Part shown: piece by piece, positions 4,680 through 32,055 of the stretch
How the letters are laid out: every line of letters starts with the position of its first letter
How positions within the stretch are numbered: position 1 is the first letter of the stretch
NCBI GenBank assembly: GCA_020846295.1
Contig: JADLEF010000111.1
Location: forward strand, 1 to 41,622
DNA: 41,622 nt
Reading direction: 5' to 3'
From: Acidimicrobiales bacterium
GTDB taxonomy: Bacteria; Actinomycetota; Acidimicrobiia; Acidimicrobiales; CAIXPF01
Position numbers and translations under genes: made by a program
Notes under the pieces: generated by a model
The model's database searches: none
What the model was told of the DNA's origin: nothing
Seen by the model: only the letters and a program-made list of their open reading frames with translations

Positions 4680-5306
4680 TCAGCTCTCACCCACCCAGCG
4701 CAACGCCCGCTGCAGGATCACCTGGTTGGCCGGCAGCGACAGCGACTCCGCGTCGTAGGCGAGCGAGTCCACCACCAGCCGGCCGTCGCCCCGAACCGCC
4801 GTCCACACCACGGCGTCGTCGCCGCAGTGGGCCAGCACATCGGTGCCCGGCTCGGCGCCGAACCGCGGCAACCGGTCGGTCAGGTCGAGCACCGCGTCGA
4901 GCCCGGCCACCACCGGGTGGCGGCGGGAGGCGAACTCGACCGGGGCCAGCGGCAGCACCGGCCTGCCGGTCAGATCGACCAGCACCCGGGTCTCGGTCAA
5001 GCGGGCCCCGAGGAACTCCGGCCATTCGGGCCAGTCCTCGAACCACTCGGTCGCGGCCCGGCACGCGACCAACCCGCCGCCTTCGGCGACGAAGCCGCGG
5101 ATGGCCTCACCCCAGCTGCGGTCGGGCGACAGCGGCAGGCTCGGGTGACCGCCGACGAACACTGCGTCGAAGCCGCCGCGCTCCAGCACGCTGCAGTCCA
5201 TGTCGAGGGGATCGACCAGTTCGCTGGCGAAGCCCATCGACTCCACCAGGTGGGCGAACGGCAGCGCCGCCGACCAGCTCACCAGGGTGAGGACCCTTCG
5301 CATCAT
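4680..5306 (-). CDS. ThuA-like / class I glutamine amidotransferase-fold protein
   Basis: A 208-aa cytosolic protein with the Rossmann-like layout of ThuA-fold proteins: a first strand RRVLTLVSW, the loop VFVGGHPSLPLS, then GGGLVACRAATEWFEDWPEW, followed by HPVVAGLDAVLDLTDRLPRF and a closing strand. The HPVVAGL stretch resembles the HPI-x-G-L motif of ThuA (trehalose utilisation) proteins. No nucleophilic cysteine elbow of a working amidotransferase is evident, apart from the Cys in VACRA. The substrate is unknown. ATG 5306 overlaps the stop of the acyl-CoA ligase (ATGA), which implies translational coupling. A second ATG follows immediately. Confidence 0.7.
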   Translation of the reverse strand: MMRRVLTLVSWSAALPFAHLVESMGFASELVDPLDMDCSVLERGGFDAVFVGGHPSLPLSPDRSWGEAIRGFVAEGGGLVACRAATEWFEDWPEWPEFLGARLTETRVLVDLTGRPVLPLAPVEFASRRHPVVAGLDAVLDLTDRLPRFGAEPGTDVLAHCGDDAVVWTAVRGDGRLVVDSLAYDAESLSLPANQVILQRALRWVGES

Positions 5307-9191: not shown

Positions 9192-10103
9192 ATGAGCATC
9201 ATGCGTCTCGGGTACGTCCACGCCCGGGTGACGGACCTCGAAGCCTCCCGGTCCCACTACTCGGACACGCTCGGCATGGAGGTCAAGGCCGAGGGTGACG
9301 GGAAGCTGTACCTGAAGGGCTGGGACGAGTACGACCACCACTCCGTCGTGCTCGAGGAAGGTGGCGTCGGCGCGGTCAAGTTCGGCTTCAAGGTGAGCCA
9401 CGCCACCGATCTCGAGCAGTACGAGCGGGCGTTGCAGCAGTTCGGCGTCACCGTCGAGCGCATGGCCAAGGGCGACAACCTCGCCACCGGGGACGGCGTG
9501 CGCTTCATCTCCCCGACGAACCACGTCTTCGAGCTCTACCACGAGATGGACTACGCCGGGACCGAGACGGGCACCCTCAACCCGCAGACCTTTCCCCGCC
9601 ACCTCCGCGGCGTCGGCGTGCCCCGCCTCGACCACACCCTCATCACGGGTGACGACGTCGAGGGCATGGAGCGGTTGTTCATCGACTGCTTCGGCTGGCA
9701 CATCTCCGAGCGGGTGATCGCCTCCCCCGAGGAGCCGACCTGCCTGGCGACGTTCCTCTCCGCCGGCCACAAGGCCCACGACCTCGCCATCCTCAAGGGC
9801 CCGGACTCGAAGCTGCACCACTTCGCCTTCATCCTCGACGACTGGAACGCGGTGCTGCGCGCCGGGGACCTCTTCGCGATGGACGACGTGCCCGTCGACA
9901 TCGGCCCGACCCGCCACGGCATCACCCGGGGCACGACGATCTACTTCTTCGACCCCTCCGGCAACCGCAACGAGGTCTTCGCCGGCAGCTACACCAGCTG
10001 CGCCGACTTCCCCACCATCACCTGGACCGCCGACCAGCTCGGCCGCGCCGTCTTCTACCACGCCCGCGAGCTGAACGACCGCTTCCTCTCCGTCTTCACG
10101 TGA
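9192..10103 (+). CDS. Catechol 2,3-dioxygenase (type I extradiol, XylE-like)
   Basis: A 303-aa vicinal-oxygen-chelate protein with two tandem domains. The C-terminal domain keeps the Fe(II) triad: H148 in RLDHTL, H209/H210 in LHHFAF and E261 in GNRNEVFAG. It also has the second-shell residues expected of XylE: His196 (KAHDLA), His242 (TRHGITRG) and Tyr251. Length and spacing are close to the 307-aa XylE family. It would cleave catechol or a substituted catechol to a 2-hydroxymuconic semialdehyde. GGGG lies 8 nt before ATG 9192. The ferredoxin just upstream probably maintains it. No other meta-cleavage pathway gene is in the window. Confidence 0.93.
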   Translation: MSIMRLGYVHARVTDLEASRSHYSDTLGMEVKAEGDGKLYLKGWDEYDHHSVVLEEGGVGAVKFGFKVSHATDLEQYERALQQFGVTVERMAKGDNLATGDGVRFISPTNHVFELYHEMDYAGTETGTLNPQTFPRHLRGVGVPRLDHTLITGDDVEGMERLFIDCFGWHISERVIASPEEPTCLATFLSAGHKAHDLAILKGPDSKLHHFAFILDDWNAVLRAGDLFAMDDVPVDIGPTRHGITRGTTIYFFDPSGNRNEVFAGSYTSCADFPTITWTADQLGRAVFYHARELNDRFLSVFT

Positions 10104-10108
10104 TAGCT

Positions 10109-10123
10109 GGCGCCTTCGGCGCT
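10109..10123 (+). terminator. GC hairpin after the dioxygenase gene
   Basis: GGCGCC-TTC-GGCGCT, six base pairs with one G-T pair, begins 6 nt after the stop codon. There is no U-tract, which is usual in this GC range. Confidence 0.45.
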
Positions 10124-10128
10124 CCCGG

Positions 10129-10208
10129 ATGGGGCCCCAACCCCATCCTCCTCCCGAGCATGGGGCCCCAACCCCATCCTCCTCCCGAGCATGGGGCCCC
10201 AACCCCAT
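10129..10208. repeat. 31-bp tandem repeat, 2.6 copies, each a short hairpin
   Basis: Copies start at 10129, 10160 and 10191 (period 31), and the third stops after 18 nt. Each begins with ATGGGGCCCCAACCCCAT, whose ends ATGGGG and CCCCAT can pair over a CCCCAA loop; the rest of the unit is a pyrimidine-rich linker. The copies are identical. They sit between the dioxygenase and the carboxylase genes, both on the plus strand. Confidence 0.9.
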
Positions 10209-21058: not shown

Positions 21059-21160
21059 ACCGCGGCAGCCGGGCGGGACCTCAGCCGCCGGGGCCCGCCT
21101 GTGGCGCCCGACCGGCTGCCCGCCTGTGGTGGGGGGCGGCCGGCCGGCCCACGCCCTGGC

Positions 21161-21218
21161 GAATCGGCGCCGATTCGGCGGGAGGGGTCGGGTGGTCACA
21201 CTGAATCGGCAGCGACTC
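21161..21218. promoter_or_regulatory. Two related palindromes 42 bp apart
   Basis: GAATCGGCGCCGATTC at 21161-21176 is a perfect 16-bp palindrome. A second copy at 21203-21218 matches 13 of 16 positions. The 42-bp spacing is four helical turns, so both would face the same side of the DNA. They lie upstream of the LLM operon and downstream of the secreted-protein gene. Confidence 0.45.
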
Positions 21219-28941: not shown

Positions 28942-29808
28942 GTGCTGGTCATGGCCGGCGCCGTCACCCAGTACCTCGGCGCTGCGCTGGCCGTGCACGT
29001 CTTCGACACGCTCGGTGCCGCCGCGGTGGCCTGGCTGCGGGTCGCGTGGTCGGCGCTGCTGCTGCTCGCCTGGCGCCGGCCGCGGTGGGGTTCGTTCAGC
29101 CCGTCGCGTCGGCGCGAGCTGGCCACCTTCGGCGTCGCGCTGGCGGCGATGAACCTGGCGTTCTACCTGGCCATCGATCGGTTACCCCTGGGTACCGCCG
29201 TCGCCATCGAGTTCAGCGGACCGATCGGCGTCGCCGCGCTGGGCAGTCGGAGCGGGCGCGACCTGCTCGCCGTCGGCCTCGCGGCGGTGGGGGTCGTGCT
29301 CCTGGCCGACGTGCAGTGGCAGGCCAACGCGCCGGGTGTGCTGTTCGCGCTGGCCGCGGCGTCGATGTGGGCGATCTACATCGTGTGGGGACGACGCGTC
29401 GGCGCCGGAGGCGCGGTGGCGGGGCTCGACGGGTTGGCGGTCGCCACCGCGATCGGCGCGCTGGCCGTGGCGCCGATCGGGCTCGGCGGCCTGGCCCGCT
29501 CGACCGCCGGCGTCGACGGGCCCGGGGCGGCCGCCGTGCTCGCCGCGGTGGTGTTGTGCGCCGTGGTGGCGCTGTGCTCCAACGTGGTGCCCTACGCGCT
29601 GGACCAGGTGGTCCTGGCCCACCTCCCCGCCGCCCAGTTCGCGCTGCTCTCGTCGCTGCTGCCGGTGACCGCGCTCGCCGTGGGCGTCGTCGCCCTGGCC
29701 CAGCGGCCCACCGCGGGGGAACTGTTGGGCGTGGGCCTGGTGGTCGCCGCGCTGCTCACCCGCGCCCGCAACGGTGCCCCCACCCCGATCGAAACGGAAC
29801 CCGCATGA
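28942..29808 (+). CDS. EamA-family (RhtA-like) inner-membrane transporter
   Basis: About 288 aa with ten hydrophobic segments in two five-helix repeats, the layout of the drug/metabolite EamA family. VTQYLGAALAVHVFDTLGAAAVAWLR in the first helix, and the pattern of AIEFSGPIGVAAL and VLFALAAASMWAIYIVWGRR, are close to RhtA, an exporter of threonine and homoserine. No ATG precedes the first helix. GTG 28942 starts right at it, and a CTG at 28894 overlapping the dehydratase stop would add 16 residues. The end overlaps the tesB start (ATGA). Why a transporter sits between lipid genes is unclear. Confidence 0.82.
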   Translation: MLVMAGAVTQYLGAALAVHVFDTLGAAAVAWLRVAWSALLLLAWRRPRWGSFSPSRRRELATFGVALAAMNLAFYLAIDRLPLGTAVAIEFSGPIGVAALGSRSGRDLLAVGLAAVGVVLLADVQWQANAPGVLFALAAASMWAIYIVWGRRVGAGGAVAGLDGLAVATAIGALAVAPIGLGGLARSTAGVDGPGAAAVLAAVVLCAVVALCSNVVPYALDQVVLAHLPAAQFALLSSLLPVTALAVGVVALAQRPTAGELLGVGLVVAALLTRARNGAPTPIETEPA

Positions 29809-30680
29809 CCGACGCCGCCGCCTTCGCCGAACTGCTCGCCGTGCTCGACATCGAGCGCAGCGGGCCGGCCACCTTCCGGGCGCGCTCCCCGCACGACCGC
29901 ACCCGCAGCATCTTCGGCGGGCAGCTGCTGGCCCAGGCGCTCATCGCCGCTGGCCGTACCGCGGAGCATGGTCGGCTGGTCCACTCGCTGCACGCCTACT
30001 TCCTGCGCCCCGGGGACCCGACCCGCCCGCTCGACATCACCGTGGAGGCCATCCGTGACGGCCGCGCCTACCAGCACCGTCAGGCCGTGATCAGCCAGGA
30101 GGGCAAGGAGGTGCTGCGGCTGCTGGCCGGCTTCGTCGTGCCTCAGGAGGGCGCCACCTACCAGCAGCCGGTCACCGTCGGCGAGGCCGATCCGGCCGCG
30201 TTCGCGGACTACGTGCGCTGGACGCTCGACGGGTCCCACCAGCCCGATCACCCGTGGGCCTCGGAGTCCCGTCTGGTGGAGCTGCGCTACGAGGGTGCCC
30301 CGCCGCCCGAGCCCGGTCAGCGCGTCGAGGAACCGCTGCGGATCTGGGCTCGCCTGCACGATCGCATCGACAGCGACGACCCGGTGCTGCACGCCGCCCT
30401 GCTGGCATGGATCTCCGACAAGACGCTGGCCGATCTCACCGTGCTCGTGCACGGCCACCGTTGGATGGACCCCGGTGTGACCTCCCTGAGCCTGGACCAT
30501 GCCATGTGGTATGCCGTGGCGGCCCGGGCCGACGGCTGGCTGCTGTTCGAGCAGGAGGTGCTGGTGACCGCGGCCCGGCGCGGGCTGGTGCAGGGCACGT
30601 TCGTGTCGCCCACCGGACAGCGGCTGGCCACCGCGGCCCAGGAGGCGCTGGTCGATCTTCCCGGGCCGGCGGACGGCTGA
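29805..30680 (+). CDS. tesB: Acyl-CoA thioesterase II (TesB)
   Basis: A 291-aa double-hotdog enzyme. The N-terminal domain contains RSIFGGQLLAQALIAAGRT and VHSLHAYFLRPGDP, signatures of TesB. The C-terminal domain has LAWISDKTLADL with the catalytic Asp, SLSLDHAMWY, and VQGTFVSPTGQRLATAAQE with the Gln of the Asp-Thr/Ser-Gln triad. It hydrolyses medium- to long-chain acyl-CoA to free acid and CoA. It overlaps the transporter by ATGA and is the last gene of the 27954-30680 operon. The long repeat-rich gap follows. Confidence 0.93.
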   Translation: MTDAAAFAELLAVLDIERSGPATFRARSPHDRTRSIFGGQLLAQALIAAGRTAEHGRLVHSLHAYFLRPGDPTRPLDITVEAIRDGRAYQHRQAVISQEGKEVLRLLAGFVVPQEGATYQQPVTVGEADPAAFADYVRWTLDGSHQPDHPWASESRLVELRYEGAPPPEPGQRVEEPLRIWARLHDRIDSDDPVLHAALLAWISDKTLADLTVLVHGHRWMDPGVTSLSLDHAMWYAVAARADGWLLFEQEVLVTAARRGLVQGTFVSPTGQRLATAAQEALVDLPGPADG

Positions 30681-30694
30681 GCGCAAGGCCGGCC

Positions 30695-30748
30695 GGGGCC
30701 GGGGCCGGGGCCGGGGCCGGGGCCGGGGCCGGGGCCGGGGCCGGGGCC
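30695..30748 (+). repeat. (GGGGCC)9 hexanucleotide tract
   Basis: Nine perfect copies of GGGGCC, preceded by GGCCGGCC and ended by GGCTCG. The G-rich strand is the tesB sense strand and begins 15 nt after its stop. Runs of four Gs at 6-nt spacing can form G-quadruplexes in DNA or in the tesB 3' RNA. Confidence 0.95.
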
Positions 30749-30829
30749 GGCTCGGGCGACCGGGGACGGGGGTTCGCTCGGTCGGCCGGGGCGTCGGGGC
30801 GGGTCCGGTGGTCGATTCGTAAACCTTAT

Positions 30830-30996
30830 GCGTGAGATCGAATTCGATTCGCCGGGTTGTGATGGTCGGCGGGCCATTGCATGAGATCGAATTCGATTCG
30901 CCGAGTCGGGTCGGTCGGCGATTCGTTGCGTGAGATCGAATTCGATTCGCCGAGTCGGGTCGGTCGGCGATTCGTTGCGTGAGATCGAATTCGATT
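30830..30996. repeat. 49-bp tandem repeat, 3.4 copies with 12-bp palindromic core
   Basis: Copies begin at 30830, 30879, 30928 and 30977; the last is only 20 nt. Copies 2 and 3 differ at one base; copy 1 diverges in its second half. Every copy holds the perfect palindrome ATCGAATTCGAT at 30837, 30886, 30935 and 30984. The second half of the unit can fold, since TCGCCGA and TCGGCGA flank a G-rich loop. Confidence 0.93.
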
Positions 30997-31116
30997 GGCT
31001 CCCTACGGGTTTGAAAGCCCGTCTCAGCACCCGAGCTGGCGGTCCCCTGCCCGGGTGTCCGCCCGGGGGGTGCCGTGCCCTGCCCGCTTTCCGGGCGCGC
31101 CCGCTCGGAGGCCGGG

Positions 31117-32055
31117 TCAGTCAGCGGTGGCGACCTCGATGCGGTCCTGGCGCCATTCCTTCGCCTGACGCAGCGCGTCCTCGGCCTGGCGGAGGATCTC
31201 ATCCCGGTCGAAGGCGTGAGCCGGGTAGCAGGCGATCCCGGCCCACACGGTGTGGATCGTGCCGCTCTCGGCCAGGTGGGTGCGGATCCGCTCCACCGTC
31301 CAGATGGCCCCGTTCTCCGGTGTGTCCTCCAGGACCAGCGCGTAGCGCCCGTCGTCGAGGCGGCAGGCGGTGTCCGCCTCGCGCAGCGTGCGGCGTAGCG
31401 CCGCGGTGACGAGATCGGCATCAGCCGCCGAGGGCTCCGGCGACGCCAGACCCCGCACGACCTCGAGCAGCACCAGCGCCACCGGGCGCAGGCGACGGCG
31501 AGCCGCCGCGATGCGTGCCTCGAGGGCCACGTCGAAGTACGCCTCGCTGAACAACCCGGTCACGTCGTCGGTCAACAGGTGCTGTCCGTCCCGGCCGACC
31601 AGGCCCTCCTCGAGCCCGGCGAGCCCCGACGCGTTCGAAGCCGCCGCTCGGGCAGCGTGCTCCAGCATCTCGATCCGCTGGTTGAGCGCCTGCTCCCGCA
31701 GGCGGGCCAAGGACAGCTCCTCACTCAGCTCCGTGGCCCGCAACGCCTCCAACGTCGAGGTCGGGTCGGGCGCCGGGGCGGACGCCACCTGGGCATGCCG
31801 CCACCCGAGCAGCCCGGCGGTCAGACCGAGCCCTCCGGCCACGACTCCCAGCACCGGTTGCGACGCGGCGAGGCCGACGACACCGATGACCGTTGCTGCC
31901 GCGCCGAGCACGGCCGTTTCCGCTCCATCCAGCAAGCGCACGGTCCTCCATCGGCCCGCGGCGGCGGTTCCTGAAGGGCCCGAACGTCCTGGTGCGCCCG
32001 TTGCGCGGCGCGAATCCCCTCGACCGATGAGGCCGCCCGACGTCGCCTGCGTCAA
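31117..32055 (-). CDS. Membrane protein with degenerate GGDEF domain
   Basis: A 312-aa protein. Two close hydrophobic helices (AVLGAAATVIGVVGLAA, VLGVVAGGLGLTAGLLGW) are followed by a coiled segment, then a GGDEF-like domain starting at LLTDDVTGLFSEAYFD (the usual D-x-LTGL-x-N). The active loop reads LDDGRYALVLED (234-238) instead of GGDEF, so cyclic-di-GMP synthesis is unlikely; a binding or structural role is possible. It starts at TTG 32055, overlapping the stop of the ethylmalonyl-CoA mutase (TTGA), so the two are coupled. It converges on tesB across the repeat gap. Confidence 0.78.
   Translation of the reverse strand: MTQATSGGLIGRGDSRRATGAPGRSGPSGTAAAGRWRTVRLLDGAETAVLGAAATVIGVVGLAASQPVLGVVAGGLGLTAGLLGWRHAQVASAPAPDPTSTLEALRATELSEELSLARLREQALNQRIEMLEHAARAAASNASGLAGLEEGLVGRDGQHLLTDDVTGLFSEAYFDVALEARIAAARRRLRPVALVLLEVVRGLASPEPSAADADLVTAALRRTLREADTACRLDDGRYALVLEDTPENGAIWTVERIRTHLAESGTIHTVWAGIACYPAHAFDRDEILRQAEDALRQAKEWRQDRIEVATAD

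Follow-up and report, generated by a model that had tools for sequence, protein, structure and literature searches.

A tandem palindrome array in a convergent gene gap of an Acidimicrobiales bacterium probably forms the interior of a species-restricted dispersed repeat

The window, i.e. the whole stretch of 41,622 nucleotides analysed here, contains a gap of 436 bp between an acyl-CoA thioesterase gene, which ends at 30680 on the + strand, and a gene for a GGDEF-domain protein, which ends at 31117 on the - strand. Genes were called with our own codon-usage script and not with a standard predictor. The two gene ends face each other, and the gap is truly convergent, as an earlier note on this DNA had described it; EamA and methylmalonyl-CoA mutase genes lie beyond the flanking pair. 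The gap holds an array of palindromes inside a longer element, and a perfect run of ten GGCCGG units lies in the same gap (30691-30750). Elsewhere in the window, a 31-bp tandem repeat (10122-10208, 2.9 copies, 96% matches) occupies the gap after a gene ending at 10103. The features of the locus are as follows.

29805-30680, + strand: acyl-CoA thioesterase gene, left flank (codon-usage gene calls)
30681-31116: convergent gap holding the element, 436 bp (6, 14 and 6 bp in three congeners)
30824-31008: whole element, 185 bp, inverted termini
30824-30847, + strand: left terminus, CCTTATG-N7-TCGAATTCGA (terminal-pattern search)
30829-30877: repeat unit 1, 39-40/49 identical to units 2 and 3
30837-30848: palindrome 1, ATCGAATTCGAT (exact match)
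30878-30926: repeat unit 2, 48/49 identical to unit 3
30886-30897: palindrome 2 (exact match)
30927-30975: repeat unit 3 (Tandem Repeats Finder and unit comparison)
30935-30946: palindrome 3 (exact match)
30976-30996: partial unit 4, 21 bases, merging into the right terminus
30984-30995: palindrome 4 (exact match)
30985-31008, - strand: right terminus, CCGTAGG-N7-TCGAATTCGA (terminal-pattern search, read on the - strand)
31117-31941, - strand: GGDEF-domain protein gene, right flank (codon-usage gene calls)

Exact copies of the perfect 12-bp palindrome ATCGAATTCGAT start at 30837, 30886, 30935 and 30984, a period of 49 bp, and Tandem Repeats Finder reports a repeat of the same period at 30829-30996 (3.4 copies, 90% matches). 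Both the four positions and the period agree with the earlier note, which had in addition called the units almost identical. This is correct for units 2 and 3, which differ at one base, but not for unit 1, nor for unit 4, which is partial: only its first 21 bases match (20-21/21) before the element ends. Two spacers of the array are identical, and on one side of the palindrome the copies have the flank CTCACGC in common. The four symmetric sites seen previously are real as palindromes, but they lie inside an element with inverted ends and their shared flank is asymmetric. Chance was rejected as the origin of the palindromes, given that the window contains six sites with at most two mismatches to ATCGAATTCGAT (shuffles: mean 0.31, maximum 3) and the genome contains 11 exact copies, compared with none for the reversed control. 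Coding sequence was likewise rejected, no open reading frame through the array being chosen by the gene caller, which bears out the earlier view that the array is non-coding. The same note had held that the array is not a terminator. Its inverted repeats and convergent setting do resemble those of an intrinsic terminator, but no GC-rich stem followed by a T-run was found in 30400-31400, and a conventional terminator was rejected. A known structured RNA family was rejected too: Rfam gave one match in the window, to a microRNA model and far below gathering, and none at gathering in seven other loci.

The array fills the 185-bp element at 30824-31008, which is bounded by inverted 24-bp ends of the form CCKTAKG-N7-TCGAWWTCGA. 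Screening of 17 regions yielded 27 terminal modules. Elements with an inverted end on either side number 13 and range from 38 to 248 bp; at the screening thresholds, the other four of these regions yielded none. The window array thus spans one whole element. The lengths are given below.

Window: 185 bp
C153: 228 bp
C323: 201 bp
C390, two elements: 248 and 166 bp
C66: 195 bp
C229: 167 bp
C349: 108 bp
C371: 162 bp
C396: 165 bp
C439: 166 bp
C70: 38 bp
C260: 38 bp

The two ends of an element match at 15-21 of the 24 terminal bases. All are built from two inverted terminal modules, which adjoin each other directly, back to back (38 bp), or, in 11/13 elements, flank a spacer (108-248 bp). The two 38-bp elements have just one shared core region each, and the interiors of the longer ones are weakly alike outside the arrays. 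Thirteen of the 27 modules have CCGTAGG, which contains GTAG, or are one mismatch off, and 14 have CCTTATG or are one mismatch off. A rule of one GTAG and one TTAT end per element was unsupported: it holds in 9/13, where even mixing would give about half. An end-to-end hairpin in single-stranded DNA is predicted in some elements, although not in that of the window. No constant target-site duplication was found over the 13 elements, exact end matches being 0-3 bp long, or 0-6 bp if the ends are allowed to shift by 2.

The earlier note had asked that the unit be sought elsewhere in the genome, and it recurs there. Seven of the 11 occurrences of ATCGAATTCGAT in the 5.88 Mb genome lie outside the window, and the longer one-sided shared sequence TCGAATTCGATCTCACGCA has 21 matches with at most three mismatches on 10 contigs (control 1). 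The terminal pattern, with its N7 spacing and W-W centre, matches exactly at 17 places in the own genome (reversed-pattern control 0) and once, in G238, among the 396 other genomes of the order. When the spacing was left free, TCGANNTCGA-N(2-10)-CMTAMGG gave 18 matches in the own genome, 17 of them with a gap of exactly 7, versus 46 in 40 relatives with one at this gap, as tallied from the coordinates that the spacing-free search listed. Furthermore, a sequence model of 28 units was run against the own genome with an E limit of 1; with 150/1374 candidates scored, it found at least 72 matches, opposite-strand duplicates included, the best of them with an E of 1.4e-7. Each of the 40 relatives had 0-15, and the best E among these was 7.6e-4. 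A contig scan gave a single match per contig among the matches listed; we read these as chance, and they say little. In composition, the element-bearing contigs do not stand out from the rest of the genome (most of the sampled contigs have 69-74% GC), and a contaminant contig was rejected on this ground. On sequence comparison, the family is species-restricted, with many intergenic copies in one genome and near absence from relatives.

None of the 13 elements lies in a called gene, and neither does a degenerate copy, C369. Five of these 14 are in convergent gaps, seven in tandem gaps and two in apparently divergent gaps, the last two calls being uncertain because of doubt about the right gene of C229 and because that of C390a, close to the end of its contig, was identified by eye. 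Confinement to convergent gaps, the context that the earlier note proposed to check, was accordingly rejected, and the convergent excess is not significant (5/14 vs 57/293 sampled gaps, p 0.17). By eye, GC-rich tandem repeats adjoin many elements (gaps in L049-L058), and a further repeat, whose inverted ends resemble GTCTGTGCACC and whose interior resembles CCCTGGTCACAGCGGTG, is found near three of these loci (L051 about 4900-5060, L056 about 5130-5290 and L205 about 660-760).

Three congeners have the same gene order on both sides of the locus, with protein identities of 57-87%, and their thioesterase/GGDEF gaps measure 6, 14 and 6 bp against 436 bp here, so that the content of the gap, the ten GGCCGG units included, is not found there. 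This empty site is one locus; a second, C153, is uninformative as an empty-site comparison because its upstream neighbour differs. The earlier note would have been refuted by a unit that is unique, absent from the same gap in close relatives and without a bound protein: the absence is what the three congeners show, whereas the unit is not unique.

Core-to-core periods differ between elements, with 49 bp in the window, 47-48 in C153, 37/37/51/38 in C323 and 37/86/38/49 in C390, and the similarity of spacers averages 0.41 within an array (n=21), higher than the 0.24 found between arrays (n=84). Since the spacers differ between elements, the tandem copies probably arose in place, and the periods and spacer likeness suggest that they probably multiplied after insertion. 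The recent expansion proposed earlier is judged likely.

A second palindromic sequence deserves separate mention. Exact copies of the hairpin GCGAATCG-N4-CGATTCGC number 24, 16, 17 and 2 in four genomes of the genus (G000, G001, G002 and G003, respectively) and 3 in G005, which belongs to the same family. Another five genomes have 1-4 each, and the other 387 of the 397 genomes of the order have none (controls 0). Flanking arms extend its stem up to 23 bp. The covariation score was 0.272 over 57/70 rows, against 0.141 (sd 0.011) for shuffles, of which 0/500 reached it, and a maximum of 0.133 when slid. This score is inflated by relatedness of the copies, and only the outer 12 pairs inform it because the inner 8 are fixed by the choice of rows. 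The 13 omitted rows comprise five in called genes, four from one tandem cluster and four left out by judgement; two called-gene rows were kept. G002 has 21 non-coding hairpins, 13 in convergent, 6 in divergent and 2 in tandem gaps, and 2 more in called genes. The 35 matches in fetched loci of G000 comprise 12 in tandem gaps, 9 at contig or stretch edges, 7 in convergent gaps, 6 in coding sequence and 1 in a divergent gap. Tandem arrays of the hairpin are seen in L325 (2470-2588, period 33) and L327 (2457-2584, period 36), and a one-mismatch copy lies in a tandem gap of the window itself (21159-21178). The half GGCGAATCGA is common to the window unit and the genus-wide hairpin; that the unit descends from the hairpin is a guess.

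How, then, should the array be explained? One reading is that a putative dimeric DNA-binding protein, with a nucleoid, segregation or regulatory role, recognises TCGAWWTCGA or the longer module, and that tandem copies raise its occupancy. All 28 units of alignment A1 have the core TCGANNTCGA unchanged, having been selected for it, while their spacers vary; several elements have 4-5 cores; and the recurrence of ATCGAATTCGAT in the genome, with none for the control, would also fit. However, the unequal periods, the single core region of each 38-bp element and the mixed gene contexts fit poorly with such a multi-site array, and near absence from the 396 other genomes of the order would be odd for a core chromosome system. 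We regard this reading as unlikely. It is still harder to maintain that the palindromes are a device at the 3' ends of RNA, i.e. hairpins between convergent genes that end transcripts in both directions or stabilise the mRNA. Both strands do give better folds than their shuffles (z -2.4 for one and -2.7 for the other), and in G002 convergent gaps are enriched in the related long palindromes (13/21 non-coding sites), with background gap counts taken from the G000 sample (57/293 convergent). Against this stand the lack of a terminator-like site in 30400-31400, the elements in tandem and apparently divergent gaps, the 6/21 G002 hairpins in divergent gaps, and the congeners, which manage with a gap of 6-14 bp and no array. 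Finally, the array might be a plain local minisatellite, born by replication slippage where the gap was already rich in repeats, while simple TCGA-rich sequence converged elsewhere to give the dispersed likeness. This would suit the GGCCGG run and the GC-rich tandem repeats seen by eye in other array-bearing gaps, but it is very improbable and largely refuted by the shared ends, as slippage alone could not produce a fixed N7 spacing together with ends that match from locus to locus.

Among known systems, REPINs are inverted REP doublets of Pseudomonas and other bacteria, and, as far as passages of PMC3116915 describe them, they resemble the present elements in having a pair of inverted palindromic modules around a spacer that is less conserved, in being intergenic, in their many copies and in sometimes forming tandem arrays. 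On the other hand, the end sequence here is another one, the copies are fewer and some elements carry short tandem palindrome arrays inside. Moreover, no Y1/RAYT transposase (PF01797) was detected in 11 genomes, the own assembly, which is 88% complete, and 10 relatives, and a RAYT-driven REP proper was rejected for this reason. GTAG-tagged REPs, according to passages of PMC3733652, are short palindromes with a tag at one end, as in the 13/27 GTAG-type modules; however, 14/27 are TTAT-type here, and 7 bp separate the tag from the core. The string 'actinobacteri' has 0 occurrences in the main text of that article. MITEs are similar in being non-coding with terminal inverted repeats, most copies here being 108-248 bp long, but they differ in that no target-site duplication was found here, nor a parent transposon in the transposase search with PF01797. 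The element works like a REPIN or a MITE and fails one defining test of each: as no RAYT was found and there is no target duplication, we have not filed it as a member of either. Judged by titles and the starts of abstracts, no report was recognised as this element or the hairpin, and none of the papers listed for an 8-mer string was about such repeats.

Taken together, the array is probably the interior of one copy of a species-restricted, non-autonomous, REPIN/MITE-like dispersed repeat that was amplified locally in tandem and that the neighbours do not need. A copy-and-insert process acting in trans on the ends would have spread the element, perhaps via hairpins that form in single-stranded DNA, the route proposed for REPINs. 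Slippage or unequal exchange would then have amplified the internal palindrome plus spacer on the spot, which would account for the period of 49 bp in the window and for those of the other arrays. We expect that the thioesterase and GGDEF genes do not require the element; a bidirectional mRNA 3' hairpin is possible as a side effect. A more far-reaching idea, which we put forward as doubtful, is that an undescribed protein, either a binder or a non-Y1 single-strand endonuclease, handles the clade hairpin with its co-varying outer arms, and that the same machinery launched a new miniature-element family in this species, whose interiors, that of the window among them, grew as tandem palindrome arrays.

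The genus-wide hairpin with its co-varying arms is in itself a separate lead, to chromosome organisation or to transcript ends, in a little-studied group. As for the array, what looked like an isolated curiosity becomes a family whose members can be counted, whose ends are defined and which is missing from one site in congeners, so that movement, copy growth and an effect on transcripts are testable. REPIN-like units with no RAYT to be detected would prompt one to ask what else can spread such repeats.
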